64,000 nt of DNA, from contig NZ_NFJT01000006.1 of assembly GCF_002160015.1 (NCBI RefSeq), positions 62,001-126,000 of the forward strand, read 5' to 3'. The notes below the pieces were generated by a model. The model had not been told where the DNA came from, made no database searches, and saw only the letters and a program-made list of their open reading frames with translations. Shown piece by piece: positions 32,965 through 50,622 of this stretch; the first letter of the stretch is position 1, and each line of letters starts with the position of its first letter. The DNA is from Anaerofilum sp. An201 (GTDB lineage: Bacteria; Bacillota; Clostridia; Oscillospirales; Ruminococcaceae). The translations under genes were made by a program, and so were the position numbers.

Positions 32965-33025
32965 GTAGAAATATCGGAATCATGTGCCGAATTCGATCTT
33001 TCGGAACGGGAAAAGGGGTTATTGT

Positions 33026-34912: not shown

Positions 34913-36737
34913 CTATCGTGTGGAGGAACGCAATACCCTATACCATCCCGGCTTCACGCGGGGACAGCGGCTGTATATGGGCGTGCAGAGGGCGGCAAGC
35001 TTTCTCTGTGCGCTGCTTGGGCTTGTGCTGCTGTCGCCGGTGTTCCTGGCCCTGTCGCTGTGGATCGTGCTGGACAGCCGGGGGCCGGTGTTCTTTGTGC
35101 AGAAACGGGTGGCGCGGTCGGCCGATGACGGCAGCTACCGCTTTTTCCCCATCTACAAATTCCGCACCATGTACACCGACACCCCGCACGACATGCCCAC
35201 CCATCTTTTGCAGAACTCGGACGCCTGCATCACCCGGGCCGGGCGTTTCCTGCGGCGCACCAGCCTGGACGAACTGCCTCAGCTGTTCAACGTGCTGAAA
35301 GGGGACATGAACCTCATCGGCCCGCGCCCGGCGCTGTACAACCAGGAGAACCTGATGGCCGAGCGCGACCGCTACGGCGCGAACTTCGTGCGCCCGGGCA
35401 TCACCGGCCTGGCGCAGGTGCTGGGCCGCGACGAGCTGCCCATCCCGCAGAAAGCGCGCTACGACGGCATATATGCCCAGCATGTGGGCCTGCGGCTGGA
35501 TCTGTTCTGCCTTGTGCGCACCGTGCGGGTGGTGCTGAAAAGCGAGGGCGTGGTGGAGGGCGGCACCGGCGCGATGGCCGCCGCCGAAAAAAAGAAAAAG
35601 ATCCTCATCTGCACCAACCACTCCTATATGCTCTACCAGTTCCGCCGCGAACTGATCGAGCAGCTGGTGCAGGACTACGAGGTGGTGCTCAGCATGCCCT
35701 TTGTGGGCCACGAGGACGATTTCGAGGCGATGGGCTGCCGCTGTGTGAAAACCAACCTGGACCGCCGCAGCATCAATCCCTTCACCGACCTCAAGCTGCT
35801 TACCTTTTATAATAAGCTGCTCAAGCGCGAAAAGCCGGACAAGGTCATCACCTACTCCATCAAGCCGAACATCTACGCGGGGCTTTTGTGCCGCCTGCGG
35901 CGCATCCCCTACTGCGCCAACGTGCAGGGGCTGGGCACCGCGTTCCAGAAAAAGGTGCTGGCGCAGTTTGTGGGCATGCTGTACCGGCTGGCCTTCGGCC
36001 GGGTGCAGGTGGTGTTCTTCGAGAACTCCACCAACGCGCAGGAGTTCGCGGCGCGGCATCTGGTGCGCACCAGCCGCATCCGTATTCTCAACGGCGCCGG
36101 TGTGAACCTGGAGCGGTATACATATCTGCCCCACCGGAACCGCTCGGAGGAGCAGGCCGATACCCGGCATTTCCTGTTCGTGGGACGCATCATGCGGGAA
36201 AAGGGCGTGGACGAGCTGTTTGAAGCCATGCGCCGGCTGCGCCGCAAATACGGCAGCCGGGTGATTCTGGATATTGTGGGCTTCTTCGAGGAGGAGTACG
36301 CCGGCACCGTCAAGCAGCTGCAGGAGGAGGGCGCGGTGATATACCACGGCTTCCAGACCGACCCGCGCCCCTTCTATGAACTGGCGGACGTGGTGGTGCT
36401 GCCGTCCTACCATGAGGGCATGAGCAACGTGCTGCTGGAGGCGTCCGCGATGGGACGCCCGGTGATCACCAGCAACATCCCCGGCTGCCGGGAGGCGGTG
36501 GAGGACGGCCGCACCGGCTATCTGTGCACCCCCAAAAACGCGGATATGCTCTACAACAAGATGGAGCTGATGATGGGCAAGACGATGGCCGAGCTGGACG
36601 AGATGGGCTGCGCGGCCCGCCGCCGGATGGAGGCCATGTTCGACAAGCGGCAGATCGTGGTGCAGACGATGGATATGCTGGGGCTGCACGAGAGCAGCCC
36701 GGCGCAGGAGCGGAAAACACCGGCCGTGTCTCTGTGA
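34905..36737 (+). CDS. Fusion: initiating phosphoglycosyl transferase + GT4 glycosyltransferase
   Basis: 610 residues. Residues 1-220 form a small monotopic sugar-phosphate transferase: membrane helix around 30-52, KFRTMYTDT, RRTSLDELPQLFNVLKGDMN, LIGPRPAL and RPGITGLAQVLGRD. Residues 230-600 are a complete GT-B glycosyltransferase 4: KILICTNHSYMLYQFRREL, HFLFVGRIMREKGVDELF and YHEGMSNVLLEASAMGRP. The fused protein would load a sugar phosphate on undecaprenyl phosphate and add the next sugar. The two halves are usually separate genes. The frame is continuous through the junction (about 35565-35600), with an AAAEKKKK linker. Confidence 0.9.
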   Translation: MDNYRVEERNTLYHPGFTRGQRLYMGVQRAASFLCALLGLVLLSPVFLALSLWIVLDSRGPVFFVQKRVARSADDGSYRFFPIYKFRTMYTDTPHDMPTHLLQNSDACITRAGRFLRRTSLDELPQLFNVLKGDMNLIGPRPALYNQENLMAERDRYGANFVRPGITGLAQVLGRDELPIPQKARYDGIYAQHVGLRLDLFCLVRTVRVVLKSEGVVEGGTGAMAAAEKKKKILICTNHSYMLYQFRRELIEQLVQDYEVVLSMPFVGHEDDFEAMGCRCVKTNLDRRSINPFTDLKLLTFYNKLLKREKPDKVITYSIKPNIYAGLLCRLRRIPYCANVQGLGTAFQKKVLAQFVGMLYRLAFGRVQVVFFENSTNAQEFAARHLVRTSRIRILNGAGVNLERYTYLPHRNRSEEQADTRHFLFVGRIMREKGVDELFEAMRRLRRKYGSRVILDIVGFFEEEYAGTVKQLQEEGAVIYHGFQTDPRPFYELADVVVLPSYHEGMSNVLLEASAMGRPVITSNIPGCREAVEDGRTGYLCTPKNADMLYNKMELMMGKTMAELDEMGCAARRRMEAMFDKRQIVVQTMDMLGLHESSPAQERKTPAVSL

Positions 36738-36915: not shown

Positions 36916-37227
36916 ATGCTGTTGGAGCAAACCATGGAAAAGCGATATGCGGCAAATCCCAACTTTCTGCTGCGGGAGATCGGCGGCGAAGCCGTGCTGG
37001 TTCCGCTGAGCGACGCGGGTGTGTTCGAAAACACCGTGCTTTCGCTGAACGAGACCTGCCGGTTTTTGTGGCAGCTCTTTCAGACGCCTACCACAGTGCA
37101 GGGAGCCATCGACGCGGCGGTGGGGGCGTATGAAGGCCCCCGCGAGGAGATTGTTTCGGGCGTTTGCAGTTTTATCCAGGAATACGTACGGTATGGATTA
37201 TTAAGGGAGGAACAACACAATGAGTAA
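36916..37227 (+). CDS. PqqD-like peptide-binding protein (cassette 1)
   Basis: 103 residues from the ATG at 36916, GGAGG 8 bases upstream. Single PqqD/RRE-like domain: NPNFLLREIGGEAVLVPLSD, then a winged helical part (LSLNETCRFLWQLFQTPTT) and C-terminal helices. PqqD proteins bind the leader of a ribosomal peptide and present it to a radical SAM enzyme. It overlaps the candidate substrate gene by 8 bp, and a radical SAM/SPASM gene follows, so the same role is likely. Family call good, function by context. Confidence 0.82.
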   Translation: MLLEQTMEKRYAANPNFLLREIGGEAVLVPLSDAGVFENTVLSLNETCRFLWQLFQTPTTVQGAIDAAVGAYEGPREEIVSGVCSFIQEYVRYGLLREEQHNE

Positions 37228-37609
37228 GAATGTATGGGTACAGCCCCAGACGGCTGTGCAGCAGTTTGTGGCCAACGAGTATGTGGCGGCCTGCGGCGAC
37301 GAGAACAAGGTTTATAAGTTTACTTGTGAAGCCGGTGGTGGCGGCAACGGCACCGTATATCTGGATAGTAATGGGAATGGCCAATGGGATTTTATTGGCG
37401 ATGAGATGTTGACTCTGGCCGGGTATCATGCCTGCGGCGCAACGCACGAGGCTCCTACTACCGACGACTTTCAGGAAGGTTTCTTCATTACGGGCGTAGT
37501 CCCTCCTTACAATGTACAGAAAGTTATTGTTTGGAGAGGCGAAGATGGTCACAATGTTCACTGCACCACCAACCTGGACATGACTACTTGGCCTACTGCC
37601 AAGTCTTAA
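37220..37609 (+). CDS. Candidate modified peptide/protein substrate (cassette 1)
   Basis: 129 residues, RBS GGGAGGAACAAC before the ATG. Not a recognised enzyme. The N-terminus K3-x2-W6-x2-P9...F16-x2-N19-x2-V22-A23-x-C25 matches the pattern in the second candidate (48699-49055) and looks like a recognition leader. The rest has four Cys (25, 36, 72, 115), a DSNGNGQWD loop (49-57) resembling a calcium-binding DxDxDGxxD, and a conserved-looking end VHCTTNLDMTTWPTAKS with a C-terminal Ser. AT-richer than its neighbours. Followed at once by a terminator, which would give more substrate than enzyme. Size is large for a RiPP precursor; a modified secreted protein is possible. Confidence 0.6.
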   Translation: MSKNVWVQPQTAVQQFVANEYVAACGDENKVYKFTCEAGGGGNGTVYLDSNGNGQWDFIGDEMLTLAGYHACGATHEAPTTDDFQEGFFITGVVPPYNVQKVIVWRGEDGHNVHCTTNLDMTTWPTAKS

Positions 37610-37631: not shown

Positions 37632-37677
37632 ACCGGCGCTTCGGCGGGGTATTCCCCGTTTGGGGCGCCGGTTTTTT
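37632..37677 (+). terminator. Terminator directly after the candidate substrate gene
   Basis: ACCGGCGC / GCGCCGGT outer stem with an inner GGCGGGG/CCCCG hairpin and T6; partial read-through would express the downstream enzymes at lower level. Confidence 0.8.
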
Positions 37678-37686
37678 GCACCCCAA

Positions 37687-37853
37687 GCCTTCCCCTGGCA
37701 GGGGAAGGTGCCCCCGTATGGGGGCGGATGAGGTCGAATCTTTCCCCTTCCACCGCACCCCTGGGCCGGGGACTTGGGGCGGGATTTGCGAAAACCGGCA
37801 GACTTCCCCTCATCAGTCGCCGTCCGGCGACAGCTTCCCCCCAAGGGGAAGCC
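37687..37853. repeat. Dispersed hairpin repeat, copy 4 (module B forward, module A reverse)
   Basis: B at 37687-37738 (variable stem GCCCCC-GTAT-GGGGGC, then GGATGAGGTCGAA). A in reverse at 37802-37853 (CCCCTCATCAG, variable stem GTCGCCG-TC-CGGCGAC). Located inside the cassette 1 gene cluster. Confidence 0.85.
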
Positions 37854-37897
37854 TTTGGCGGCCGCCAACATTTTTTCTGCCCGAAAGGAGCCTTTGT

Positions 37898-39010
37898 ATG
37901 GACGACATCCGCGAATTTTCCACCGTCGAGCAGATGCTGCTGGACAATGCCCGCAAAAAACACATCCCGGCCAACGGCAGCATCGAGCTGCTGCCGCTGT
38001 GCAACATGAACTGCGACATGTGCTATGTGCGCCTGAGCCGCGAGGAGATGGAGCGGCAGGGCCGTCTGCGCACGGCGGAGGAATGGCTGGAGATCGGCCG
38101 CCAGATGCAGGCTGCCGGCGTGCTGTTTCTGCTTCTCACCGGCGGCGAGCCGCTTTTGTATCCCGGCTTCAAAGAGCTGTATCTGGGCCTGAAACAGCTG
38201 GGCATGATTCTCACCATCAACACAAACGGCACCCTGATCGACGAGGAATGGGCCGATTTCTTCGCCGCCCACAAGCCCCGCCGCATCAACATCACCCTCT
38301 ACGGCGTGAACGAAACCACCTATGCGAACCTGTGCCATTATCCGGGCGGCTTTGAAAAGGCGACCCGGGCCATCCGCCTGCTGCGCGAGCGGAAGATTGA
38401 CGTAAAAATCAGCAACAGCGCTGTGAAATCCAACCGGGAAGATCTCACTCGTTTGCACAGCATCGGCAAGGATTTGGATTGCCCGGTGCGGGTGGACAGC
38501 TACATGATGCCCGCCGCCCGGGAGCGCACCCAGCCCTTTGCGATGCAGTCCCGGCTAACACCGGAACAAGCAGCTTCCATCTGGATACAATCGCTGAAAC
38601 TTGAGATGGAACCCTACTTATTCCGCCAGTATGTGCAGCAGAGCATCCAGCGCGCCCGGCAGACCCCGGAAGGCCCGGCCGAACCCGGCCGGATGACTTG
38701 CATGGCCGGCAGCTGCTCCTTCACCATCAACTGGCAGGGCGAGATGCGCCCCTGCGTGATCCTCTCCAGCCCCTCGGTGCCGGTGTTTTCGCTGGGATTT
38801 TCCGCCGCCTGGGAGAAAATCGTGCAGGAATGTGATACAATACGGTTGAACCCCCAGTGCTCGGTGTGCAGTCTGCGGCATCTGTGCCGCACCTGCGCGG
38901 CCAGCGCGCTGCTGGAGGAGGGCCGCTATGATGCCGTGCCGCGGTATATGTGCCGCTATGCCGCCGAGACGCTGCGCCTTTTGCAGCAGGAGGATCTGGA
39001 AAATGGATAA
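37898..39010 (+). CDS. Radical SAM/SPASM peptide-modifying enzyme (cassette 1)
   Basis: 370 residues from the ATG at 37898 (AAGGAG upstream). Radical SAM cluster motif C35-x3-C39-x2-C42 (PLCNMNCDMCY) and the SAM-binding LLTGGEPLL near residue 86. The C-terminal third is cysteine-rich (CMAGSC, RPCVIL, NPQCSVCSLRHLCRTCAAS, YMCRY), a SPASM-type arrangement for auxiliary 4Fe-4S clusters. Such enzymes form thioether, C-C or epimerised residues in peptides. The neighbouring PqqD-like gene and substrate-like ORF support this; the reaction cannot be predicted. Homologous to the enzyme at 47576-48718. Overlaps the kinase gene by 8 bp. Confidence 0.88.
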   Translation: MDDIREFSTVEQMLLDNARKKHIPANGSIELLPLCNMNCDMCYVRLSREEMERQGRLRTAEEWLEIGRQMQAAGVLFLLLTGGEPLLYPGFKELYLGLKQLGMILTINTNGTLIDEEWADFFAAHKPRRINITLYGVNETTYANLCHYPGGFEKATRAIRLLRERKIDVKISNSAVKSNREDLTRLHSIGKDLDCPVRVDSYMMPAARERTQPFAMQSRLTPEQAASIWIQSLKLEMEPYLFRQYVQQSIQRARQTPEGPAEPGRMTCMAGSCSFTINWQGEMRPCVILSSPSVPVFSLGFSAAWEKIVQECDTIRLNPQCSVCSLRHLCRTCAASALLEEGRYDAVPRYMCRYAAETLRLLQQEDLENG

Positions 39011-39854
39011 GACATTTTGCATCGGGGAGTTCGTGTTCCGGCTGCGCTGCCCCGACGAGATACAGCCCCCCGCCAACTTTTTGCAGTTCGCCGCCGACGA
39101 CGGCCGCCCCGTGCAGTTCACCTACGACATTGAGGTGGCCGATGAACTGCCCCGGCCGGAAACCATCCTCGTGCGCCATCCCGACCTCGCGGTCTTTTCC
39201 ACGCCGGGCGGGGAAGGGCGGCTTCTGAATGTCCGCGGGGAGACCGAGTTCTACGCCTGCTACCGGGAGACCGACGCCGCACACGCCCGCATCTCCGTGA
39301 CGCCCGAAAAGCTGGACAGCCTGCGCATCGACACCATGTTCGTCTCGCTGCTGGCGCTGGAACGCCGGATGATCGAGCGCGGCGGCATGGTGCTGCACTG
39401 CGCGTATGTCCACTACAACGGGAAGGCCATCCTGTTTTCGGCGCCGTCCGGCACCGGCAAGAGCACGCAGGCCGGTTTGTGGGAGCAGTATCGCGGCGCC
39501 GACACCGTGAACGGCGACCGCGCGCTGCTGGCCTGCCCGGGCGGCGTGTGGACGGCGCAGGGCTGGCCGGTGTGCGGCAGCTCGAAGATCTGCCACCTGC
39601 GCGCGCTGCCCATCCACGCCATCGTGATGCTGCGGCAGGCGCCCGAAAACACGGTGCAGCGGCTGCATCCGGCCCGGGCCTTTGCCCTGCTCTACACCCA
39701 GATCACCGCCAACCGCTGGAACCAGGCCGCCCATCTGCGCACCATCGGGCTGATCGAACAGCTGGCGGGGCAGGTGCCGGTGTTCGAGCTGGGCTGCACC
39801 ATCTCGCAGCAGGCGGTGGACTGCCTGGCACAGGCGCTGTATCCCGCCGAATAA
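39003..39854 (+). CDS. HprK-like kinase (cassette 1)
   Basis: 283 residues. The C-terminal half carries the HPr kinase/PEPCK-type P-loop: LHCAYVHYNGKAILFSAPSG followed by TGKST (Walker A about 147-155), then TVNGDRALL. The first 130 residues have no recognised match. HPr itself is not encoded nearby and the N-terminal HprK domain is missing, so it is probably not the carbon-catabolite kinase. HprK relatives in lasso-peptide clusters (paeninodin) phosphorylate the C-terminal Ser of the precursor. The candidate substrate here ends in Ser. Start at 39003 inside the radical SAM gene. Confidence 0.78.
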   Translation: MDKTFCIGEFVFRLRCPDEIQPPANFLQFAADDGRPVQFTYDIEVADELPRPETILVRHPDLAVFSTPGGEGRLLNVRGETEFYACYRETDAAHARISVTPEKLDSLRIDTMFVSLLALERRMIERGGMVLHCAYVHYNGKAILFSAPSGTGKSTQAGLWEQYRGADTVNGDRALLACPGGVWTAQGWPVCGSSKICHLRALPIHAIVMLRQAPENTVQRLHPARAFALLYTQITANRWNQAAHLRTIGLIEQLAGQVPVFELGCTISQQAVDCLAQALYPAE

Positions 39855-39876: not shown

Positions 39877-41661
39877 ATGGAAGAACAGAACAACCAGCAC
39901 AAGGGCATTTCCTTCGATTCGCTGGAGACGCTCGTCCGCCGCTGGAAGGACGGCACCTTCGGCGAGATCGTGGACGACTGGAAATGGATCTTTTCCTACA
40001 GCGCGCGCTACAAGGGCGCCATCGCCTTCTATCTGTTCCTGGGCATCTTCAGCACCACGCTGGGCCTTGTGAGCAGTGTGGCCGGCAAATACATCATCGA
40101 CATCATCACCGGCCACGATTCCAGCCGCCTGTGGGTCATGATCGCGGTGATGGTGGGCAGCACGGTGTTCAGCCTGGTATTCGGCAGCCTCATCAGCCGC
40201 ATCACCGCCAAGCTGAACATCGCCATCAACAACGATATCCAGGCCGACATCTTCGACAAGATCGTCGACGCCGACTGGCTGGCCCTCAACGACTACCCCA
40301 GCGGCGACATCCTCAACCGCTTCAACGGCGACATCGGCACCGTCAGCAGCAACGCCATCAGCTGGCTGCCCTCCATCCTCATCGCCGTCTACAACTTCGT
40401 GGCCACCTTCTTCGTCATCCTCTACTACGACTGGATCATGGCGCTGTTCGCGCTGGGCACCGCGCCCTTCATGCTGCTGATGTCCCGCTTTGTGCTGAAA
40501 AAGCAGCGGGAATACAACAAGAAGATGCGCGAGATGAGCAGCGACATGATGAGCTTCGAGGTGGACACCTTCTACAACTTCGACACCATCAAGTCCTTCG
40601 GCGTGGCGCCCCACTACAGCAAAAAGCTGCGCTGGTGGCAGGGCAAATTCCGCGACGTGAGCCTGAAATACAACCTGTTCTCGATCAAGACCAACATCCT
40701 GATGTCGGTGGTGGGCACGCTGGTGCAGTTCGCGGCCTTTGGCTACTGCCTGTTCCGTCTGTGGACCGGCGGCATCACCTACGGCACCATGACCCTGTTT
40801 CTGCAGCAGCGCAGCAAGCTGTCCAGCGCGTTCAGCAGCGTGGTGAGCATCATCCCGTCCTTCCTGAACAGCTCGGTGTCGGCCCACCGCATCCGCGAGC
40901 TGGTGCAGCTGCCGCGCGAGGTGCACATCCCCGAGAGCAGCCGGATGGACCGGTTCGCCGGGCAGGGCTTCACGGTGCGCATGAAGGGCACCACCTTCTC
41001 CTACAAGGCCGGCGCCCGGGTGATCACCGATTCGGCCTTTGAGGCGAATCCCGGCGAGATCGTGGCGCTGGTGGGGCCGTCCGGCGAGGGCAAGACCACG
41101 ATGATCCGCCTGATCCTCGGCCTGATCCGCCCGCAGGAGGGCGAGGTGCTGCTGGAGGCGGGCGGCGAAGCGGTGCCCATGAACACCGAGACCCGCCACC
41201 TGTTCGCTTATGTGCCGCAGGGCAACACGATCCTGTCCGGCACCATCGCGGAGAACATGCGGGTGGTGAAGGAGGACGCCGCCGACGAGGAGATCGTGGA
41301 GGCGCTCAAGATCGCCTGCGCGTGGGATTTCGTGCAGAAGCTGCCGGGCGGCATCGACGCGCCGGTGGGCGAGCGGGGGCGCGGGCTGTCGGAAGGGCAG
41401 GCCCAGCGCATCGCCATCGCGCGCGCGGTGCTGCGCGACGCGCCCATCTTGCTGCTGGACGAGGCCACCAGCGCGCTGGACGTGACCACCGAGCGCACCG
41501 TGCTGCGCAACATCGTGCAGCGGCATCCCAACAAGACCTGCATCGTCACCACCCACCGCCCCAGCGTGCTGAACCTCTGCCAGCGCGTCTACCGCGTGAT
41601 GGACACCCGCGTCACCGCGCTGAGCGAGGAGGAGTCGAGCCGGATGGCGATGGACTTCTGA
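39877..41661 (+). CDS. ABC exporter, fused domains (cassette 1)
   Basis: 594 residues, RBS AAAAGGAG. An N-terminal extension of about 40 residues precedes a six-helix membrane domain (about 45-335). NBD: Walker A LVGPSGEGKTT, signature LSEGQAQR, Walker B ILLLDEATSALD, switch His in VTTHRPS. No peptidase C39 domain, so leader cleavage would need another protein such as the S26-type product encoded next. Placement within the cassette suggests export of the modified product; cassette 2 has no exporter and might share it. Confidence 0.87.
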   Translation: MEEQNNQHKGISFDSLETLVRRWKDGTFGEIVDDWKWIFSYSARYKGAIAFYLFLGIFSTTLGLVSSVAGKYIIDIITGHDSSRLWVMIAVMVGSTVFSLVFGSLISRITAKLNIAINNDIQADIFDKIVDADWLALNDYPSGDILNRFNGDIGTVSSNAISWLPSILIAVYNFVATFFVILYYDWIMALFALGTAPFMLLMSRFVLKKQREYNKKMREMSSDMMSFEVDTFYNFDTIKSFGVAPHYSKKLRWWQGKFRDVSLKYNLFSIKTNILMSVVGTLVQFAAFGYCLFRLWTGGITYGTMTLFLQQRSKLSSAFSSVVSIIPSFLNSSVSAHRIRELVQLPREVHIPESSRMDRFAGQGFTVRMKGTTFSYKAGARVITDSAFEANPGEIVALVGPSGEGKTTMIRLILGLIRPQEGEVLLEAGGEAVPMNTETRHLFAYVPQGNTILSGTIAENMRVVKEDAADEEIVEALKIACAWDFVQKLPGGIDAPVGERGRGLSEGQAQRIAIARAVLRDAPILLLDEATSALDVTTERTVLRNIVQRHPNKTCIVTTHRPSVLNLCQRVYRVMDTRVTALSEEESSRMAMDF

Positions 41662-41672
41662 CAGGAGGAAGC

Positions 41673-42131
41673 ATGGAACAGCAAACACTCGACACCCGCG
41701 GCTATGTGAGCCTGCTGCGCGACGCGGTGCGGGAGGGGCGGACCGTCTCGATGCGCATCGTGGGCAGCAGTATGTCGCCCTTTCTGGCGCACGACCGCGA
41801 CCTCATCACCTTCGCCGCCCCCCACCGGGAGCTGCGGGCCGGGGATATGGTCTTTTACCAGCGCGACAGCGGCCAGTTCGTGATGCACCGCATCCATAAG
41901 GTGCGCCCCGAGGGCCTGTACCTGGTGGGCGACGGGCAGACCGAGATCGAAGGCCCCCTCTCGCCCGACCACGTGTTCGCGCTGGTGGGCAGGGTCTGCC
42001 GCAAGGGGCGCTGGATGCAGCCGGGCGATTTCTGGTGGGAATTTTTCGAGCACGTCTGGCCGCGCCTGCTGCCGCTGCGCCCCGCGATCAGCCGCGCATA
42101 CGGCTTTGTGTACAAACACCGACCGTTCTGA
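41673..42131 (+). CDS. S24/S26 signal-peptidase-like protein (cassette 1)
   Basis: 152 residues, RBS AGGAGG. The motif GSSMSPFL with the Ser33-Met34 pair corresponds to box B of type I signal peptidases. VMHRIHKV (His72) corresponds to the His of the ER/SipW-type enzymes that use Ser-His instead of Ser-Lys, and LVGDGQTE to the later Asp-containing box. There is no N-terminal membrane anchor. It could remove the leader of the candidate substrate; the paralogue at 49948-50421 ends cassette 2. Confidence 0.75.
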   Translation: MEQQTLDTRGYVSLLRDAVREGRTVSMRIVGSSMSPFLAHDRDLITFAAPHRELRAGDMVFYQRDSGQFVMHRIHKVRPEGLYLVGDGQTEIEGPLSPDHVFALVGRVCRKGRWMQPGDFWWEFFEHVWPRLLPLRPAISRAYGFVYKHRPF

Positions 42132-42162
42132 CAAATCGGGGCGGTTGTGCCGCCCGCGCTGT

Positions 42163-42300
42163 TTATGGTATAATGGCCGCAGGGCGGCCATTATATCGCC
42201 TTATTTGAATGCTCTTTTTCTCGCCCCTTGCGGGGCAACCGAAAAAGATAGAAAAATTATACCATTTCGCTTGCGCTTCATGGTATAATAGAATGCGCGA
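42163..42300 (+). promoter_or_regulatory. Two extended -10 promoters and a hairpin before cpsB
   Basis: TGG TATAAT occurs at 42169-42174 and again at 42284-42289. Between them ATAATGGCCGC / GCGGCCATTAT forms a perfect 11-bp hairpin with a 3-base loop that includes the first -10, and TTATACCAT...ATGGTATAA forms a wider inverted repeat around the second. This region probably restarts transcription for the capsule regulatory genes. Confidence 0.55.
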
Positions 42301-42326
42301 ATAAAAGGGGAAAGGGGGGCGCGCCT

Positions 42327-43088
42327 GTGGTGGACATCCACTGCCATATCCTGCCCGGCCTGGACGACGGGGCGGGCGCCGTCTACGACACGCTGGCCAT
42401 GGCCGACCTGGCCGCGCGCAGCGGCACCCGGACGATCGTGGCCACCCCCCACTGCAATATTCCCGGCGTCTACGAGAACTATCTGGGCGAGGAATACTGG
42501 CAGGCCTTTTCACTGGCGCAGGAGGCCATCCGGCAGGAGGGCATCCCGCTGACGCTGCTGCCGGGCATGGAGGTGTTCGCCACCGAGTCGCTGCCCCGGC
42601 TGATCGCCGACGGGAAACTGCTGGGCCTCAACCGCACCCGCAATCTTCTGGTGGAGTTCGAGTTTGTGGAGGACCCCGATTTTGCCCGCCATGTGCTGGC
42701 CCGGGTGGCCGAGGCCGGGATGCGCCCGGTGGTGGCCCACGCCGAGCGGTACCTGTTCGTGCAGGACGACCCGCAGATCGTCTTTGAATGGCAGGCGCTG
42801 GGCTATGCCGTGCAGGCGAACAAGGGCAGCTTTGTGGGTCGGTTCGGCTCCCACGCCGCCCGCACCGCCTGGCGCCTTCTGGACCACAACCTCATCACCG
42901 CCATCGCCAGCGACGCCCACACGCCGGTCATGCGCACCCCGTATATGGCCGACGTGTTCGACATGCTGGCGGCCGACTATCCCCCCGCATACATAGAGCA
43001 TCTGTTTTTCACCAACCCGCGACGCCTGTGCCGCGGCGAGGACCCGGTGACGTTCCGGGCCGTTCCCTTCGATGAATCAGCACAGTAA
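42327..43088 (+). CDS. CpsB/YwqE-type tyrosine-protein phosphatase (PHP fold)
   Basis: 253 residues, GTG start (two successive GTG codons, GGGGGG upstream). PHP metal motifs: MVDIHCHILPGLDDGA at the start, ATPHCN, GMEVFA, VVAHAERY near residue 138 and ASDAHTPVMRTP near residue 196. CpsB proteins dephosphorylate the tyrosine cluster of the capsule BY-kinase and control chain length. The two kinases at 44035-47027 are the obvious substrates. Confidence 0.92.
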   Translation: MVDIHCHILPGLDDGAGAVYDTLAMADLAARSGTRTIVATPHCNIPGVYENYLGEEYWQAFSLAQEAIRQEGIPLTLLPGMEVFATESLPRLIADGKLLGLNRTRNLLVEFEFVEDPDFARHVLARVAEAGMRPVVAHAERYLFVQDDPQIVFEWQALGYAVQANKGSFVGRFGSHAARTAWRLLDHNLITAIASDAHTPVMRTPYMADVFDMLAADYPPAYIEHLFFTNPRRLCRGEDPVTFRAVPFDESAQ

Positions 43089-43103
43089 AAAGGAGCAGCA
43101 ACA

Positions 43104-44030
43104 ATGAGAAAGATACGCATCGCTGTGGTGGCTGTGTTCCTGCTGTCCGCCATTGCCTACGGGTGGCTCACCCTGTTTGCAGACCGCGGCAAGGACACCA
43201 CCCCGCCCACCATCCAGTGCAGCCAGGACACCCTCCAGCTGAGTGTGGAGGACGACGAGAGCAAACTGCTGGAGGGCATCACCGCGCAGGACAACGTGGA
43301 CGGCGACCTCACCGCCGCCATCCGGGTGTCCGCCCTCTCGCGGTTTGCCGCGCAGGGCAGGCGGACGGTGGACTATGTGGTGTTCGACAGCGCCAACAAC
43401 TTTGCCACCTACAGCCGCACCGTGCAGTACACCGACTACCAGCCGCCCCGCATCTGGCTGGACGAGCCGCTGCGGGTGGACATCAACCAGCTGGAAAAGT
43501 TCGACCCCTCCGCCTCGCTGCGCGCCGAGGACGTGCTGGACGGCGACATCTCCAACAAGGTGCGGGTGTCGGTCAACAGCGGCGCCTATGTGGGCGACGC
43601 GGGCAACTACCCCATCACGGCGCAGGTCAGCAACAGCGCGGGCGACACCGTCACCGTGCCGCTGGAGATGACCGTGATCGACTCCACCGACCCCGACGAG
43701 AGCGGCAAATACTACCCCATGCTCTCCCAGTACATCGCCTACACCAAGGTGGGCCAGGGCATCGACCCGATGCAGTTCCTGTGCGGCGTGATGCGCGGCA
43801 GCCAGACATATCTGTTCCCCGAGAGCACCGTGACCGATGACGACGAGGACGAGGACGAGGATGAGGACATCCCCTCTGCCGGCGGTGTGATGGGCATCGA
43901 GCGCAGAGACATCACCGTGAACAACACGGCGGACGCCGCCACCCCCGGCACCTATACCGTGGAATATTCCTACACATCGGACGACGATATTACCGCCGTG
44001 ACCAAACTGGTGGTAGTGGTAGAGGAGTAA
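43104..44030 (+). CDS. Membrane-anchored Ig/cadherin-like protein in capsule operon
   Basis: 308 residues. N-terminal signal anchor (residues 4-25), then two DUF5011-like Ig repeats, each with a D-x-V-D/L-D-GD motif (ITAQDNVDGDLTAAI; LRAEDVLDGDISNKVR). A region with YTKVGQGIDPMQF and an acidic run (DDDEDEDEDED, about residue 248) follows, then a third beta-rich end. Not recognised as an enzyme. Between cpsB and the co-polymerase genes, so it may sit in the periplasm-like space with the assembly machinery. RBS AAAAGGAG. Confidence 0.75.
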   Translation: MRKIRIAVVAVFLLSAIAYGWLTLFADRGKDTTPPTIQCSQDTLQLSVEDDESKLLEGITAQDNVDGDLTAAIRVSALSRFAAQGRRTVDYVVFDSANNFATYSRTVQYTDYQPPRIWLDEPLRVDINQLEKFDPSASLRAEDVLDGDISNKVRVSVNSGAYVGDAGNYPITAQVSNSAGDTVTVPLEMTVIDSTDPDESGKYYPMLSQYIAYTKVGQGIDPMQFLCGVMRGSQTYLFPESTVTDDDEDEDEDEDIPSAGGVMGIERRDITVNNTADAATPGTYTVEYSYTSDDDITAVTKLVVVVEE

Positions 44031-44034
44031 AACG

Positions 44035-45501
44035 ATGAACAAAGACGAAAACTTCAACGAGATACTGCAGACCAGCCGGCTGGAGCCGTTCACGCTGGTG
44101 CGCGATATTCTGGTGAACTGGTGGGTGATCCTGCTGGGCGCGCTGGCGGCGGCGATGCTGGCGGCCACCGTGCTGAGCCTGCGCTGGCAGCCCGCCTACA
44201 CCACCTCGGCCACCTTCGCGGTGTCCAGCCGGGTGGGCGCCAGCTCCTACGCCGACCTCAACAGCGCCAGCGAGATGGCCGGCACCTTCCAGAAGATCCT
44301 GCAAAGCTCGGCCCTCAACAAGATCCTGTGCGAGGAGCTGGAGGTGGATTCCATCGACGCTGCCATCACCAGCAACGTCATCCCCAACACCAACCTGCTG
44401 GAGCTGTCGGTGTCCTCCTCCTCGCCGCGCGAAGCGTTCGACACCATCCACGCCGTCATGGACAACTACGCGCAGGTGTCCTATTTCTCGCTGGGCAACG
44501 CCGTGCTGGAGCCGCTGGACGAGCCGGAGATCCCGCTGTATCCCTCCAACCCGCTGAACACCTCCCGCGCCATGAAGCTGGCCTTCCTGGCGGCGGCCGC
44601 GGCGCTGGCGGCGCTGTTCGGCCTGCTGTCCTTCTTCCGCGACACCGTCAAGCAGGAGGACGACGTGGAGGCGAAGCTCGACACCCGCAGCCTGGGCGCG
44701 CTGGTGTATGAGCCCAAGGCCAAGAACCTGCGCGAGCTGTTCCAGAAGCAGAAAAAGGCCCTGCTGGTGAGCCAGCCGCTGGCCGGCTTCGGGTTCGTGG
44801 AGAGCTACCGCAAGTTTGTGTCCAAGCTGGAATACCAGATGGAAAAACACCACAGCAAGGTGCTGGTGGTGAGCAGCGTGTCCGAGAACGAGGGCAAGTC
44901 CACCGTGGCGGCCAACATCGCCATCAGCCTGGTGCAGCGCGGCAAAAAGGTGCTGCTGATCGACGGCGACCTGCGCCGCCCGTCCCAGTTCCTGATCCTG
45001 GGCATCGAGACCCAGGACAAGAACGAGCTGGGCGAATACCTCAAGAGCGGGCGCTTTTCCGACGAGATCATCACCAAAACCGACATCGGCGGCCTCTACT
45101 TCATGGGCGGGCGCAACTGCTACTCGATGTCCACCGACATGCTGCAGAGCGGCAACATCGAAAAGCTGCTGAAAACCTGCCGCCGCCTGGTGGACTATGT
45201 GGTGATCGACACGCCGCCGGCCGGGCCGCTGGGCGACGCCGAGCTGTTTGCCCGGTACGCCGACGAGGTGCTGCTGGTGGTGCGCCAGAACTACATGCTG
45301 GCCGAGGACATCAACGATGTGTTGGACCATTTCCGCGAGGTGGGCTGCCATGTGGTGGGCGTTGTGCTGAACCGCGTGCAGTCGTTTGAAAACCTCACCG
45401 CCCAGACGGTGGGCCGCTATGCCGGCCGCTACGGCTACGGGTATGGGTATGGATACGGCGCGTACGCACAGTACGCCAACGACAGAGGGGAACAGCAATG
45501 A
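44035..45501 (+). CDS. Polysaccharide co-polymerase fused to BY-kinase (CpsC-CpsD), first copy
   Basis: 488 residues. N-terminal Wzz/CpsC part with two membrane helices (about 29-48 and 181-203) and an outer domain between them, joined to a cytoplasmic tyrosine kinase. Kinase motifs: Walker A VSENEGKSTVAANIA, Walker A' LLIDGDLRRP, Walker B YVVIDTPPAGPL. The tail GRYAGRYGYGYGYGYGAYAQ is the autophosphorylated Tyr cluster. In most Firmicutes the two parts are separate proteins. It controls length and export of the capsule polymer with CpsB. Confidence 0.92.
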   Translation: MNKDENFNEILQTSRLEPFTLVRDILVNWWVILLGALAAAMLAATVLSLRWQPAYTTSATFAVSSRVGASSYADLNSASEMAGTFQKILQSSALNKILCEELEVDSIDAAITSNVIPNTNLLELSVSSSSPREAFDTIHAVMDNYAQVSYFSLGNAVLEPLDEPEIPLYPSNPLNTSRAMKLAFLAAAAALAALFGLLSFFRDTVKQEDDVEAKLDTRSLGALVYEPKAKNLRELFQKQKKALLVSQPLAGFGFVESYRKFVSKLEYQMEKHHSKVLVVSSVSENEGKSTVAANIAISLVQRGKKVLLIDGDLRRPSQFLILGIETQDKNELGEYLKSGRFSDEIITKTDIGGLYFMGGRNCYSMSTDMLQSGNIEKLLKTCRRLVDYVVIDTPPAGPLGDAELFARYADEVLLVVRQNYMLAEDINDVLDHFREVGCHVVGVVLNRVQSFENLTAQTVGRYAGRYGYGYGYGYGAYAQYANDRGEQQ

Positions 45502-47027
45502 GTGAGAGATATGAACGGGAGGACAGCCGCCCGTCTTCCCAGCCGGAAAAGATCGACCTGCTCCACATCGTGGCGGATTTTCTGTATGGGCTGAAAAAGC
45601 TGTGGGTGCTGCTGCTGGTCGTGGTGGTGGCCTGCACGCTGCGCTCGTATTTCGCCACCAGCAGCAGCTACACGCCGAGCTATGTGGCGTCGGCCACCAT
45701 GTCGGTGACCACCGTCAGCGGCGGCGGCGGATATATGGACTCCAAATCGGCCGAGCAGATGGCCACCGTCTTTCCGTATGTGCTCACCAGCGGCGTGCTG
45801 GCCGACGTGGTGGCCGACTATATGGGGCTGGACGCGCTGCCCGGCAGCGTGAGCGTGACCGCCGAGGAGGGCACCAACCTGCTGACCGTTTCGGCCACCT
45901 CGTCCGACCCGCAGGCGGCCTACGACCTGCTGCACGCGATGATCGAGTGCTATCCCCAGGTGGGCGAGTTCGTGTTCGGCCAGACCACTCTGGAGATCCT
46001 GGACGAGACCGGCGTGCCCACCGACACCCAGAAGGAGGTCGTCATCCGCGGCTCCTATAAGCGGGGCGCGGTGCAGGGCCTTGTGCTGGCGCTGGTGATC
46101 CTGTGCGTGTATGTGCTGTCCCACCGCACCGTGCAGTCGACCGACCAGCTGAAAAAGCAGGTGAACCTGAGCCGTCTGGCCAGCATCACCTATGTGCGCG
46201 GCAAAAAGCGCAAAAAGAAAAACGGCGCTCCGCTGTGCATTCTGAACAGCCATGTGCCCGAGACCTATCTGGAATCCATCCGCAAGCTGCGCATGCGCGT
46301 GGCCCGCGAGATGGAGGAAAAGGGCTATAAGACCCTGATGGTGACCAGCTCGGTGCCGGGCGAAGGCAAGACCACCATCGCGGCCAACCTGGCCGTCGCG
46401 CTGGCGCGGCAGGGCAAAAAGGTGATCCTGGTGGACTGCGACGCGCGCAACCCGTCGCTGGCGCACGTGCTGGGCAGCACCGACGAGCACCCCGGCCTGG
46501 GGCAGGTGCTGCGCGGCGAGGCCGAGCTGGACACGGCGCTGTGCGACGTGAGCGTGGACAGCAGCAATGTGCTGCGGGTGCTGTACGGCGGCAAGCCCAG
46601 CAAGGCGGACGCCCTGCTGCTGGGCCGCACCCAGATGGAGGAACTGATCGGCAAGCTGCGCGAGCAGGCGGACATCGTGATCCTGGACACCGCCCCGGCC
46701 CAGCTGCTGGCCGACGCCTCGCTGATGGCGCGGTATGTGGACGCGGCGCTGTATGTGGTGCGGTACGACTACACCAAGATGAAGCGCATCCGGGCCGGCA
46801 TCCAGGCGCTGGACGTCAGCGGCATCCATATGCTGGGCTACGTCTTCAACAGCGACCAGAGCGCCAAAGGCAAGCGCCACAGCCGCGGCTACGACTACGG
46901 ATACGGCTATGGCTACGGATACGGCCGCTACTGGCGCTACAGCCATTACAGCCACTACGCCCAGCAGGACAAGCTGCGGGAAACCGGCAAACAGCAGGAC
47001 GGCTCCGGGCGCGTGATCAAAAACTGA
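45498..47027 (+). CDS. Polysaccharide co-polymerase fused to BY-kinase, second copy
   Basis: 509 residues, ATG overlapping the previous stop (ATGA). Same layout as the preceding gene: membrane helices near 36-50 and 193-209, kinase with TSSVPGEGKTTIAANLA, VILVDCDARNPS and IVILDTAPAQLL. The Tyr-rich tail is GYDYGYGYGYGYGRYWRYSHYSHYA read in two pieces. Sequence similarity to copy 1 is moderate, so this is an old duplication. A basic loop RGKKRKKK precedes the kinase. The two proteins may form a mixed complex. Confidence 0.92.
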   Translation: MSERYEREDSRPSSQPEKIDLLHIVADFLYGLKKLWVLLLVVVVACTLRSYFATSSSYTPSYVASATMSVTTVSGGGGYMDSKSAEQMATVFPYVLTSGVLADVVADYMGLDALPGSVSVTAEEGTNLLTVSATSSDPQAAYDLLHAMIECYPQVGEFVFGQTTLEILDETGVPTDTQKEVVIRGSYKRGAVQGLVLALVILCVYVLSHRTVQSTDQLKKQVNLSRLASITYVRGKKRKKKNGAPLCILNSHVPETYLESIRKLRMRVAREMEEKGYKTLMVTSSVPGEGKTTIAANLAVALARQGKKVILVDCDARNPSLAHVLGSTDEHPGLGQVLRGEAELDTALCDVSVDSSNVLRVLYGGKPSKADALLLGRTQMEELIGKLREQADIVILDTAPAQLLADASLMARYVDAALYVVRYDYTKMKRIRAGIQALDVSGIHMLGYVFNSDQSAKGKRHSRGYDYGYGYGYGYGRYWRYSHYSHYAQQDKLRETGKQQDGSGRVIKN

Positions 47028-47222: not shown

Positions 47223-47579
47223 ATGTCTCATCCGTTTAAAAACAATTGTCCCCCTCCCAAGGACGTTTTTTGTCCCAGCGGGGCATCTGAAGCGCCGCCG
47301 GGGCCGGTCTATCAGGCCTCCTCCCACTACATCCACCGCAAAGTGGCAGACATGGATGTGCTGATTTCGGTGGGGGGGAACATCGCCAATTTCAACGGAT
47401 ACATAGAGCTGAATCCCAGCGCCTCGCTCCTGTGGGAGACACTGGCGCAGCCCAAAACGGCCGCGGAATTGGCCGCTGCGCTGCAGAGCGCCTACGGGAT
47501 CGCGCCCGAACAGGCCCGCGCAGACGTGCAGGAATTCCTGGAGCTGCTGGTGCAGCATGAAATGGTGGTGGCGCCGTGA
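47223..47579 (+). CDS. PqqD-like peptide-binding protein (cassette 2)
   Basis: 118 residues. A 30-residue proline-rich N-terminal stretch is followed by a PqqD domain: YIHRKVADMDVLISVGGN, then NPSASLLWETLAQPKTAAEL and the helical end. The NP-SAS-LLW element is the canonical PqqD hallmark. The radical SAM gene starts inside its stop (GTGA), supporting a leader-binding role. Paralogue of the protein at 36916-37227 by fold, not closely similar in sequence. RBS AGAAGGGGG. Confidence 0.85.
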   Translation: MSHPFKNNCPPPKDVFCPSGASEAPPGPVYQASSHYIHRKVADMDVLISVGGNIANFNGYIELNPSASLLWETLAQPKTAAELAAALQSAYGIAPEQARADVQEFLELLVQHEMVVAP

Positions 47580-48718
47580 CAAGCGAAACACCCGCCATTC
47601 CACCCGGCGCACAGCGCCTGGCCGAGATGCCGCGCCGCATCCCGGTGAACGGGACATTCGAGCTCACCGTGCGCTGCAACCTGCACTGCAAGATGTGCCT
47701 GTTCCGCCACGCCGACAGCGAAAACGCCCGCCTGCTGGCCGAGGAGATGACGGCGGACGAGTGGATCGAGATGGCGCGCCAGGCGGCCCGGGCAGGGACG
47801 GTGAACCTGCTGATCACCGGCGGTGAACCGCTGCTGCGCCCGGATTTCTGCGAGATCTGGGAGGGCGTTTACCAACAGGGGTTTCTGATCACCCTGTACA
47901 CCAACGCCACGCTGGTGACGCCGAAGGTGATGGAAACGCTCCGCAGATATCCGCCGCACAAGATCGGCGTGACCATCTACGGCGCGTCGCCCGAGACCTA
48001 CCGGAAGGTGTGCGGCGATGCAGCGACCTTTGCGCGCACCATTGCCGGGATTCACCAATTGCAGACGCTGCCGTCGGTGCTGGAATTCCGCACCACGATC
48101 ATAAAGGACAATTATGCCGATGCGGACGCCATCGACGAATTGGTGCAGCGGGAGTTCGGGAAAGAATTTCGGGTGACCCAGGCCCGCATGGTCACCAAAG
48201 CGGTGCGAGGCGCCTGTGCCGACGTGGAAAGCTGCCGGCTGGACCCGGAAGACAACGTGCGGCTGGCATTCCGGCGGGGGATCAATCTCATCAAGCAGTA
48301 TGTGGGCGACCGTTACGATGAGCGGAACCTTTTGCTTGAGCATGTGAACGTAAGCGAAGATGATGCATTCCAGCCGCGCCTGACCTTATTTGGCTGCGAT
48401 GCCGGGATGCGGGACTATGTGATCTCATGGGACGGACAGCTTTTGGGCTGTCAAATGTTGGGGGTATTCCACACAGACGCTCGCGGGCAAGGATTCCACA
48501 CAGCCTGGGAACGTTTCCCTCTGGAGGTGAAATTACCTCCTGTAAACAACACCTGCCTGTCTTGCAAAAGCCGAAACATATGCAACTGCTGCTATGCATC
48601 GCGTTATGCGGAAACCGGCTTTTTGGATGGGCTGCCCGACTATGTATGCAAGGATACTTCCATACTGCAAGCAATGTATGATAGAGGAGAGAGCAAACAT
48701 GGAAAAAACGAATTATGA
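47576..48718 (+). CDS. Radical SAM/SPASM peptide-modifying enzyme (cassette 2)
   Basis: 380 residues, GTG start overlapping the PqqD stop. Cluster motif C34-x3-C38-x2-C41 (VRCNLHCKMCLF), LLITGGEPLLRPDF near residue 85, GVTIYGASPETY. C-terminal cysteines (FGCDAG, LGCQML, CLSCKSRNICNCCYASRY, YVCKD) form a SPASM-like region. Clearly homologous to the enzyme at 37898-39010. The last third of the gene is AT-richer than the first, continuing into the substrate gene, which overlaps by 20 bp. Reaction unknown. Confidence 0.88.
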   Translation: MTSETPAIPPGAQRLAEMPRRIPVNGTFELTVRCNLHCKMCLFRHADSENARLLAEEMTADEWIEMARQAARAGTVNLLITGGEPLLRPDFCEIWEGVYQQGFLITLYTNATLVTPKVMETLRRYPPHKIGVTIYGASPETYRKVCGDAATFARTIAGIHQLQTLPSVLEFRTTIIKDNYADADAIDELVQREFGKEFRVTQARMVTKAVRGACADVESCRLDPEDNVRLAFRRGINLIKQYVGDRYDERNLLLEHVNVSEDDAFQPRLTLFGCDAGMRDYVISWDGQLLGCQMLGVFHTDARGQGFHTAWERFPLEVKLPPVNNTCLSCKSRNICNCCYASRYAETGFLDGLPDYVCKDTSILQAMYDRGESKHGKNEL

Positions 48719-49055
48719 GAAACCTGAGGTAAAGCTTGTTTCGATCCGCAATGACCGCGCGGTGGCAAACACTTGCTGGGGAGGACATGGGAATTCGACG
48801 ACCTGGTATTACGATATTTCCGGTCAGGGATATGTGTCGTTTCAAATCGGCGGCGGAAAGTGTACGCTGAACTTTTCCAATGTTACATACTACGACAAGC
48901 AGAACGATGAAAGCCCCGAAATGTTGCTGGAAAGCGATCCCAAATATCACGAACTGTACGATGCATTGATGACTTCAGGTGGCGACACCGGAAACCCCTT
49001 CAAAGGCGAGGGCATTAACTTTATTCCCGATAACCCCGATCCCGAATGGAGCTGA
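48699..49055 (+). CDS. Candidate modified peptide/protein substrate (cassette 2)
   Basis: 118 residues from the ATG at 48699 (AGAGGAGAG upstream). The N-terminus shares K3, aromatic Y6, P9, aliphatic L13, I16, Asn18, V22-A23 and then a Cys (26) with the cassette 1 candidate. After that the two diverge: this one is rich in Gly, Asn, Ser, Tyr and Trp (CWGGHGNSTTWYYD), has only one more Cys (55), an acidic middle and a C-terminal PDNPDPEWS ending in Ser. No membrane segment or enzyme motif. AT-rich. Position after the radical SAM gene and before the kinase gene suggests it is the substrate. Confidence 0.6.
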   Translation: MEKTNYEKPEVKLVSIRNDRAVANTCWGGHGNSTTWYYDISGQGYVSFQIGGGKCTLNFSNVTYYDKQNDESPEMLLESDPKYHELYDALMTSGGDTGNPFKGEGINFIPDNPDPEWS

Positions 49056-49058
49056 CCC

Positions 49059-49958
49059 ATGCCGCACACCTTTGACGTCCGGCTGGCCGGGCTGCACTGG
49101 CAGTTTTCCAAAAGCCCTGCCGGCCTGTGGCAGATCTGGCCCTGGAAGCTGGACCCCTTCCGGATGCACGGCGCCGCGGAAAAGCCCTGCGTGTGCGTAG
49201 ACCTGTGTCCCTGCGGCACTCCCGCGGATATGCCGGAGACTTTCCCGCCCCTCTTGCGGAAAGCCTCCGGCTTTTTCACCAACACGGTGCACCGCCTGCC
49301 GGACGGGGATGTGCTGTGGCAGATGAGCCGCACCTCCACCGAACAGCCGGTCCTCCGCATGCGCACCGACGCCGGGTGGCGCCGCGTTTCCCTTCTGCTG
49401 GACGAGACCGCCAGCGCCGGAGCCGCCGCCTTTGAATATCTGTCTCAGATCACACCGGGGCTGTTTTTGCAGCGCGGCCGGATCACCTTTCACGCCGCTC
49501 TGGTGGAATACCGGGGCAGCGCATTCGCCGTCTGCGCCGATTCCGGCACCGGCAAGACCACCCATGCCCGGCTGTGGCGCGACTGCGCGGACGCCCTCAT
49601 CCTGAACGGCGACCGGGCGGTGTGCGCCCCGACCGAAACCGGCTGGACCGCCTTCGGCACCCCCTGGTCCGGCACCAGCGGCGAACAGCTGGCCCGCTGC
49701 GCACCGCTGCGGGCCTTTGTCGTGCTGGAGCGCGCCGGCGAAAACACCGCATGCCGCCTGGAGCCGTCGGAGGCGTTCGCGGCGCTGCTGCCGCATCTCC
49801 TGTACCCCTCGTGGGAGCGTGCGCTGGCCGAACGCGCGCTGGCCTTGATCGACGATCTGCTGCGCCGCCTGCCGGTCTACCGGCTGCGCTGCCGCCCCGA
49901 CGAACAGGTCGTGGCGGTCCTGCGCCGGGTGCTGTGGGAGGACGAAGATGCAGACTGA
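49059..49958 (+). CDS. HprK-like kinase (cassette 2)
   Basis: 299 residues. P-loop region FHAALVEYRGSAFAVCADSG followed by TGKTT (Walker A about 160-168), then LILNGDRAVCAPTETGW, the same H-x5-Y-x-G-x(n)-SGTGK[ST]T layout as the cassette 1 kinase. The N-terminal 140 residues are divergent and include several Cys and Trp. Expected to phosphorylate a Ser of a protein or peptide; the adjacent candidate substrate ends in Ser. It starts 4 bp after the substrate gene and overlaps the S26 gene by 11 bp. Confidence 0.78.
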   Translation: MPHTFDVRLAGLHWQFSKSPAGLWQIWPWKLDPFRMHGAAEKPCVCVDLCPCGTPADMPETFPPLLRKASGFFTNTVHRLPDGDVLWQMSRTSTEQPVLRMRTDAGWRRVSLLLDETASAGAAAFEYLSQITPGLFLQRGRITFHAALVEYRGSAFAVCADSGTGKTTHARLWRDCADALILNGDRAVCAPTETGWTAFGTPWSGTSGEQLARCAPLRAFVVLERAGENTACRLEPSEAFAALLPHLLYPSWERALAERALALIDDLLRRLPVYRLRCRPDEQVVAVLRRVLWEDEDAD

Positions 49959-50421
49959 AAAGCGCTGGATCACCGCACAGCTGCTGTTCTCTGCCATCTC
50001 CGAGGAGCTGGCTTCCCACCGGCGTGCAAGTTTCACCGTCACCGGTATGAGCATGTGGCCTTTTTTGTGCCACGGGCGCGACCAGGTGATCCTGGAGGAG
50101 TACATCCCGGGCACGCTGCGCAAAGGGGATGTGGTCCTGCTGCAAACGCCGCTGGGGAACTATCTGCTGCACCGCGTCACCCGCGTGCTGCCGGATGGCT
50201 TTGAAACCACCGGCGACGGCAACTGCTTCCGGGACGGCCGCTTCCCGTTTTGCTGCATTCGGGCACGGGCATCCGCGTTTGTCCGCAAGGGCAAGACCAT
50301 CGACTGCCGTTCCGCCGCATGGCGGACGCTGTTCGCCGTCTGGATGGCGCTGTTTCCGGTGCGCCGCCCTCTGTTTCTCCTGTGGGGGCACCTGCGCCCC
50401 TATATCCGGCATATCCGATGA
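49948..50421 (+). CDS. S24/S26 signal-peptidase-like protein (cassette 2)
   Basis: 157 residues. VTGMSMWPFL (Ser35-Met36) and NYLLHRVTRV (His75) correspond to the Ser and His boxes of ER/SipW-type signal peptidases, then TTGDGN. The C-terminal 45 residues are hydrophobic/basic (FAVWMALFPVRRPLFLLWG) and may associate with the membrane. Last gene of cassette 2, which lacks an ABC exporter. Confidence 0.75.
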   Translation: MQTEKRWITAQLLFSAISEELASHRRASFTVTGMSMWPFLCHGRDQVILEEYIPGTLRKGDVVLLQTPLGNYLLHRVTRVLPDGFETTGDGNCFRDGRFPFCCIRARASAFVRKGKTIDCRSAAWRTLFAVWMALFPVRRPLFLLWGHLRPYIRHIR

Positions 50422-50506: not shown

Positions 50507-50622
50507 TTCCCCTCATCAGTCCCCCTACGGGGGACAGCTTTCCCCCAGGGGGAAGCCAACGGTATCTAAAGCCTTCCCCAGCAGGGGAAGGTACCGCCGA
50601 AAGGCGGCGGATGAGGTCGAAG
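50507..50622. repeat. Dispersed hairpin repeat, copy 5 (module A reverse, module B forward)
   Basis: A reverse at 50507-50556 with variable stem GTCCCCC-TAC-GGGGGAC. B forward at 50571-50622 with variable stem ACCGCC-GAAA-GGCGGC, then GGATGAGGTCGAAG. Confidence 0.85.

Follow-up and report, generated by a model that had tools for sequence, protein, structure and literature searches.

A second gene cassette of Anaerofilum sp. An201 probably joins a lasso-type front end to a radical SAM enzyme and a signal-peptidase-like leader protease

Five plus-strand genes, overlapping or closely spaced, occupy positions 47223-50421 of a 64,000-nucleotide stretch of the Anaerofilum sp. An201 genome (contig NZ_NFJT01000006.1, positions 62,001 to 126,000), hereafter the window. 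They form the second (c2) of two related cassettes, the first (c1) lying upstream, and probably encode the enzyme set of a ribosomally synthesized and post-translationally modified peptide (RiPP): a lasso-type front end, a radical SAM enzyme and a signal-peptidase-like leader protease, with no exporter of its own. A first-pass annotation had described the locus as a five-gene set recurring downstream of c1 with the substrate gene moved; the coordinates hold, the precursor gene follows the radical SAM gene, and c2 contains no ATP-binding cassette (ABC) gene. The features of c2 are as follows.

47223..47579, plus strand: PqqD-like free RiPP recognition element (RRE), a leader-binding protein, 118 aa (Pfam PqqD 2.1e-17, over cut-off)
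47576..48718, plus strand: radical SAM/SPASM maturase, 380 aa (Pfam Radical_SAM 5e-24, over cut-off)
48699..49055, plus strand: precursor, 118 aa, an orphan open reading frame (ORF) whose start codon lies within the radical SAM gene
48699..48767, plus strand: predicted leader, residues 1-23, from the YEKP motif to AVA (ungapped [YW]xxP ... [VI]A pattern; inferred cut site)
48768..49052, plus strand: predicted core, residues 24-118, with two Cys (C26, C55), both invariant in 8/8 aligned precursors
49050..49052, plus strand: C-terminal Ser codon (Ser118), predicted phosphorylation site from the frequency of terminal Ser in long precursors
49059..49958, plus strand: HprK/PEPCK-fold kinase-like protein, 299 aa (structure model and fold matches)
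49948..50421, plus strand: S26 signal-peptidase-like protease, 157 aa (NCBIfam sigpep_I_arch 7e-8, below cut-off)

The top NCBIfam match of the PqqD-like protein is lasso_PqqD_Strm (5e-9, under the curated cut-off). The radical SAM gene starts with GTG and overlaps the PqqD-like gene by 4 bases. Alignment of 22 relatives reveals an invariant CxxxCxxC motif (three Cys) and six invariant SPASM-type Cys, with a seventh kept in at least 90%; SPASM itself is under the Pfam cut-off in the c2 and c1 proteins. The precursor has no family match in Pfam or NCBIfam, and counterparts at the same position in seven loci share 32-52% identity with it. Its structure model (pLDDT 43) has no confident fold and gives no conclusion on a folded protein.

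The kinase-like protein is predicted from its AF2 model (nine-row alignment, pLDDT 87.9) to have the HprK/PEPCK fold with a P-loop. The model aligns with PEPCK 2pc9 over 245 residues at 4.3 A (VIA Z 15.8), Foldseek matches it to HprK/P 1knx and 1jb1 (E 4.5e-5 and weaker), and the P-loop, H145 and D185 are invariant in 9/9 aligned proteins. By sequence, the match to PDB HprK is marginal (E 0.024), and the HprK-like proteins of c1 and c2 have neither a Pfam match nor an NCBIfam model over cut-off. In the S26-like proteins, S35, H75 and G89-D90 are invariant (11/11), residues that we take to supply the Ser nucleophile and His/Lys base. The highest 19-residue hydropathy, calculated in search of an N-terminal anchor, is 1.45 near residue 127 in c2 and 0.54 in c1.

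The c2 radical SAM protein, used alone as query against genome contigs, finds nine loci: eight close relatives (55-67% identity) and a distant planctomycete protein. All eight close relatives have PqqD before the radical SAM gene and the precursor and HprK after it; S26 is present in seven, and the eighth contig (L025) stops 90 bases past HprK. The full order, with S26 last, is kept in six of the eight, and L023 exchanges S26 and HprK. This constancy supports the coherent system that the first-pass annotation had proposed. Records of Blautia, Fusicatenibacter and Ruminococcus, genera known from the gut, are among these relatives. A c2-type radical SAM protein (E 1e-90 or better) occurs in one of the 247 genomes of the host's own family, that of the window itself, and in four of the 397 that represent the family, probably Lachnospiraceae, to which the Ruminococcus turbiniformis record G632 belongs. 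Across 44 cassettes (three near copies removed; S26 and PqqD counted where present), tree distances follow those of the radical SAM protein for HprK (Mantel r 0.84, n=44), S26 (0.85, n=26) and PqqD (0.62, n=30); none of 2000 permutations is as high, and shared species history contributes to these values.

Two observations concern further units of this kind. On contig C67 of the window's own genome, a third unit (L013, 7419-9461) consists of PqqD, a precursor with HPNRS at its C-terminus and a c1-like radical SAM gene (57%); its 16-kb region has no HprK or S26 match, and the unit may borrow those of c1. The second c2 cassette of genome G637 carries its S26 gene twice (L207, 11362-13056), as a short and a longer copy ~1 kb apart.

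Precursors were picked from ORF lists with [YWF]xxP near a radical SAM gene, by position, leader motif and eye, with other unlike motif-bearing ORFs set aside; 51 were gathered, and dropping one near copy (L072) leaves 50. The leader motif is partly built into this selection; it made no use of Ala at P+14, of Cys or of terminal Ser, though the eye may favour them. The counts exclude L019, whose frame is broken near the start in the assembly and which ends in Ser, and L130, which contains a run of N; L007, L017, L068, L149, L165, L167, L201, L206 and L208 contribute none, either because the contig is cut or because no precursor was taken.

Within the ungapped YxxP register, Ala stands exactly 14 residues past Pro (P+14) in 43/50 precursors, a tally lowered by L016, whose leader is read in the wrong register, and the preceding residue is Ile, Val, Leu or Met in 49/50. 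Core Cys is present in every one of the 50 precursors beside a radical SAM gene (150 Cys in 3611 residues) and in 0/11 same-leader peptides of HprK cassettes without radical SAM (395 residues; Fisher 2e-12). The scan for the latter gave 16 matches at 15 of 43 loci, of which five unlike ones were set aside; the opposite strand gave 12 chance matches, so the 11 rest on position and length. Terminal Ser closes 33/47 precursors with HprK at the locus and 31/34 of those with at least 60 aa, against a background of 22/631 other long ORFs of the regions (taken mechanically, at least 200 aa and longest first, not all genes). The remaining three precursors, from loci without HprK, end in Ser (L013, L158) and Ala (L203). 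Grouped by blastp, the 35 cores with terminal Ser, two of them from loci without HprK, give 17 clusters, and their last three residues take 23 different forms. The HprK tree, rooted at its midpoint, has one half of 48 rows holding 34/36 terminal-Ser rows and another holding 41/43 rows without radical SAM; its labels mark L019 and L130 as terminal-Ser, L130 without ground (its end is unreadable), and retain the copies L022/L172, L148/L210 and L071/L072. Judged from sequence, the conserved leader and variable core beside an RRE and a modifying enzyme mark a predicted RiPP system in general.

The 11 Cys-free peptides (L088, L093, L094, L102, L111, L112, L115, L116, L118, L121 and L122) include several with PKT-x-Y or IKT-x-Y near the start of the core. 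They are possibly a separate, wider-spread RiPP class beside HprK.

In the pathway that we propose for c2, the free RRE (47223) would bind the YxxP leader of the 118-residue precursor and bring it to the partner enzymes. The radical SAM/SPASM enzyme would then modify the core at Cys, most likely with thioether cross-links; Cys is its likely target because it accompanies the enzyme throughout and is absent from the peptides without it. The HprK-fold kinase would phosphorylate Ser118, the best guess given the terminal-Ser pattern and the precedent of paeninodin-type lasso kinases, which phosphorylate a C-terminal Ser. The S26-like protease would cut close to the conserved Ala of the leader (about Ala23) and free a core of ~95 residues, a small-residue cut that fits the Ala at the leader end for a signal-peptidase-like enzyme. 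In lasso leaders the motif reads YxxPxL, and the Pro of BsfA is at -14 (PMC10368454), which puts the conserved Ala here within one residue of that cut. An ABC exporter encoded elsewhere, perhaps that of c1, would carry the core out.

One lasso cluster offers a precedent for a nucleotidyltransferase that adds sugar to the phosphate. In two relatives a nucleotidyltransferase gene (Pfam PF14907) is a neighbour of the cassette: in L023 it adjoins c2, and in L026 it stands between the two cassettes. The single match in the window's own genome was rejected as a partner: it sits on contig C5, and the surrounding 16 kb contain no gene of the cassettes.

Beyond c2, we tentatively propose, at somewhat under even weight, that HprK-type kinases mark a large clostridial phosphopeptide superclass with a common chassis of RRE, kinase, S26 leader protease and ABC exporter, to which a radical SAM enzyme is added wherever the core has Cys; c1 and c2 would be two lineages making long Cys-cross-linked peptides with a last-residue phosphate and a shared exporter. 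If so, phosphorylation at the C-terminus would be a common tailoring reaction, combinable with radical SAM chemistry, rather than a peculiarity of lasso peptides, and leader removal by a signal-peptidase-like enzyme would be unusual among RiPPs.

Like the phosphorylated lasso peptides of Firmicutes (paeninodin, pseudomycoidin), the c2 system has a free PqqD-like RRE, a YxxP leader and an HprK-type kinase, the first two being found in c2 itself as lasso-type features, together with C-terminal Ser in most long precursors and a nucleotidyltransferase neighbour in two relatives. Unlike them, it has a radical SAM enzyme, an S26 protease and a ~95-residue core with Cys. No Pfam match to a lasso cyclase (Asn-synthetase-like) or B2 leader protease was found among 10 cassette proteins, seven other window proteins (32984-36737 and 39877-47027) and two to the right of c2. 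The SynChlorMet (Scm) cassette shares an HprK-like ScmC, a PqqD-like ScmD and a radical SAM ScmE, matched among the relatives; c2 differs in having one radical SAM gene where NCBIfam names two (ScmE, ScmF), and the S26 protease and ABC gene here are likewise not known from the Scm gene content. Membership was rejected on the c2 scores of 27/125 (ScmC), 20.6/100 (ScmD) and 86.8/400 (ScmE) bits against the curated cut-offs.

Sactipeptide and ranthipeptide systems share the radical SAM/SPASM enzyme, the RRE and Cys-containing precursors, whose Cys pattern may agree with thioether formation, and differ from c2 in its kinase and S26 protease. Among NCBIfam models, no curated sactipeptide or ranthipeptide maturase threshold is reached by the c2 radical SAM protein (best StsB 58/625 and PapB 58/340 bits). 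The S26-like protein resembles the Ni-SOD maturation protease and archaeal or SipW-type signal peptidases in weak family matches, a Ser-His pattern, small size and possibly the lack of a clear membrane helix; it scores below their curated cut-offs and adjoins a RiPP precursor. Lasso-like free RREs beside radical SAM enzymes were already noted with RRE-Finder (PMC7470986), and a 2014 survey records HPr kinases in anaerobe lasso clusters (PMC4289311). No paper with this radical SAM/PqqD/HprK/S26 combination was recognised in the literature searched, a weak sign of absence as subscription papers lay mostly outside it. The parts are known, and their combination, unrecognised in that literature, joins parts of two different peptide families.

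Several observations weigh against the proposed pathway. The precursors were chosen by eye and the pattern counts are not phylogenetically independent; two candidates without the motif, left out of the counts, end in Arg (L018) and Thr (L078). Terminal Ser is lacking in 11/13 short precursors (<60 aa, HprK loci), in 3/34 long ones (one with Ser penultimate) and in 8/11 peptides of cassettes without radical SAM (three end in Ser), and the short and radical-SAM-free precursors rule it out as a universal mark of the kinase. To our knowledge, a core of ~95 residues is large for a RiPP. The c2 radical SAM protein reaches no curated maturase model that would indicate a cross-link type. S26, S24 and signal peptidases go unmentioned in the RiPP protease review searched. 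The lasso kinase BsfK acts on Ser3 instead of the last residue (PMC10368454).

Frequent occurrence of one component without the others, which the first-pass annotation had named as evidence against a system, is seen for one gene of two. The HprK profile matches 105/391 genomes of the class, and 42 of the 55 regions fetched (part of these matches, mostly top-ranked, some cut by contig ends) have an HprK-like gene without this radical SAM gene; only 13 hold it, and 28 of the 42 hold PqqD, S26 or a related ABC gene. The radical SAM gene is seldom found without HprK (exceptions L013, L158 and L203). Its profile A3 (E 1e-70) matches 13/391 genomes, all among the 105 with HprK, an overlap that is partly circular because A3 contains rows found through HprK.

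Three other readings have to be weighed. The core pathway could be right with terminal Ser acting as a recognition signal for the protease or exporter, the kinase having another residue or target. The kinase cassettes without terminal Ser, short or lacking radical SAM, and the Ser3 activity of BsfK speak for this; the tracking of terminal Ser with one half of the HprK tree and the C-terminal site of the paeninodin-type kinases speak against it, and we consider it rather unlikely. A product that stays inside as a cofactor or small functional protein, as in PQQ or mycofactocin synthesis, would suit the large core, the missing exporter of c2 and the radical SAM matches, far below cut-off, to PqqE, mycofactocin and heme models among others. 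The wide divergence of the Ser-ending cores (17 clusters), unlike a cofactor precursor, and the ABC gene in c1 and many c1-type relatives leave it the least probable of the three.

The cassettes could instead serve exopolysaccharide loci, the kinase and peptide regulating or decorating the polysaccharide with no free peptide formed. In the window, a CpsB gene and two tyrosine-kinase-like ATPase genes lie between the cassettes, and relatives of CpsB, the Ig-like protein or the ATPases lie near 16/49 regions with radical SAM and HprK versus 3/42 with HprK only (Fisher 0.0025). The association goes with c1 more than with c2: of the eight c2 relatives, L026 alone has such neighbours in its region, and it carries c1 as well. 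The two sets of regions also differ in length and in taxa; we regard this role as improbable, slightly less so than the cofactor. The proposed phosphopeptide pathway remains our preferred account.

The first cassette comprises the following features.

36916..37227, plus strand: PqqD-like RRE (Pfam PqqD 1.6e-10, over cut-off)
37220..37609, plus strand: precursor, 129 aa, C-terminus TAKS (same leader pattern, C-terminal Ser)
37898..39010, plus strand: radical SAM/SPASM maturase (Pfam Radical_SAM 2e-26, over cut-off)
39003..39854, plus strand: HprK-like kinase, 34% to the c2 copy (NCBIfam ScmC 6.7e-14, below cut-off)
39877..41661, plus strand: ABC exporter (Pfam ABC_membrane and ABC_tran)
41673..42131, plus strand: S26-like protease (Pfam Peptidase_S24 1.3e-5, over cut-off)

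The exporter has no peptidase domain among its Pfam matches, and Peptidase_S24 is not over the Pfam cut-off in the c2 S26-like protein, unlike in c1. Pairwise blastp alignment of c2 with c1 relates the radical SAM proteins (29% over 341 aa, E 5e-48), the HprK-like proteins (34% over 220 aa, E 2e-31), the S26-like proteins (28% over 144 aa, E 8e-17) and the PqqD-like proteins (22% over 86 aa, E 1e-4). The precursor pair (28% over 67 aa, within the first 57-66 residues; E 0.28) is not significant alone. The annotation had called the cassettes paralogous with rearranged order, and both terms are right: these four proteins are homologous.

The HprK tree qualifies this picture. Among 96 proteins (94 different), c2 falls in a 17-row clade (support 100/98) and c1 in a separate 28-row clade (98/91); the nearest kin of the c1 protein (58%) is in G637, a Blautia record, and that of the c2 protein (46%) in the Lachnospiraceae locus L024. 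Because the closest kin of each sit in other genomes and in separate clades, c1 and c2 are two old lineages brought or kept together. Local duplication was rejected as their origin, since the HprK proteins fall in separate well-supported clades with other species. The two cassettes also stand side by side on the Fusicatenibacter contig L026.

A single exporter serving both cassettes, as the first-pass annotation had suggested, is plausible on sequence data, with evidence on either side. At E 1e-60 or better, the window's own genome has a single c1-type ABC gene, and it holds three radical SAM units of this family. No ABC gene of c2's own is found at any of the eight loci, with ~10 kb covered on both sides only in L020, L021 and L022; that of L026 belongs to the adjoining c1. 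At E 1e-200 or better, a c1-type ABC gene occurs in 5/8 c2 genomes versus 16/299 in the G632 family (Fisher 4.5e-5; G632 and G634 belong to both sets, and some of the eight c2 genomes may lie outside that family), and within those 299 in 2/3 with c2 versus 14/296 (p 0.008). There is one such gene in each of G634, G637 and G638, one plus a distant second (31%) in G631, and one at E 1e-200 in G840; each of these genomes has two to four radical SAM genes of the family. On the other side, G635 and G636 have no such ABC gene, a weak absence given that several records are metagenome bins. The unlinked ABC genes of G631, G634 and G840, which stand without cassette genes in their regions, were rejected as proof of service to c2: each of these genomes has additional c1-like radical SAM genes at other places, which the exporter could serve instead of c2.

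Polysaccharide genes lie upstream in the window, and between c1 and c2 are genes for CpsB, an Ig-like surface protein and the two tyrosine-kinase-like ATPases, one with a Wzz domain. The ATPase genes stand in tandem at 44035-47027 and encode GY-rich tails. Downstream of c2, on the opposite strand, are genes for a GH43/LamG protein and a histidine kinase. An intergenic repeat occurs at 37676-37880, between the c1 precursor and radical SAM genes, at 50509, just past c2, at 53767, at 61949 and at other places; it has at least 59 matching places in the genome, with 40 of 176 candidates scored.

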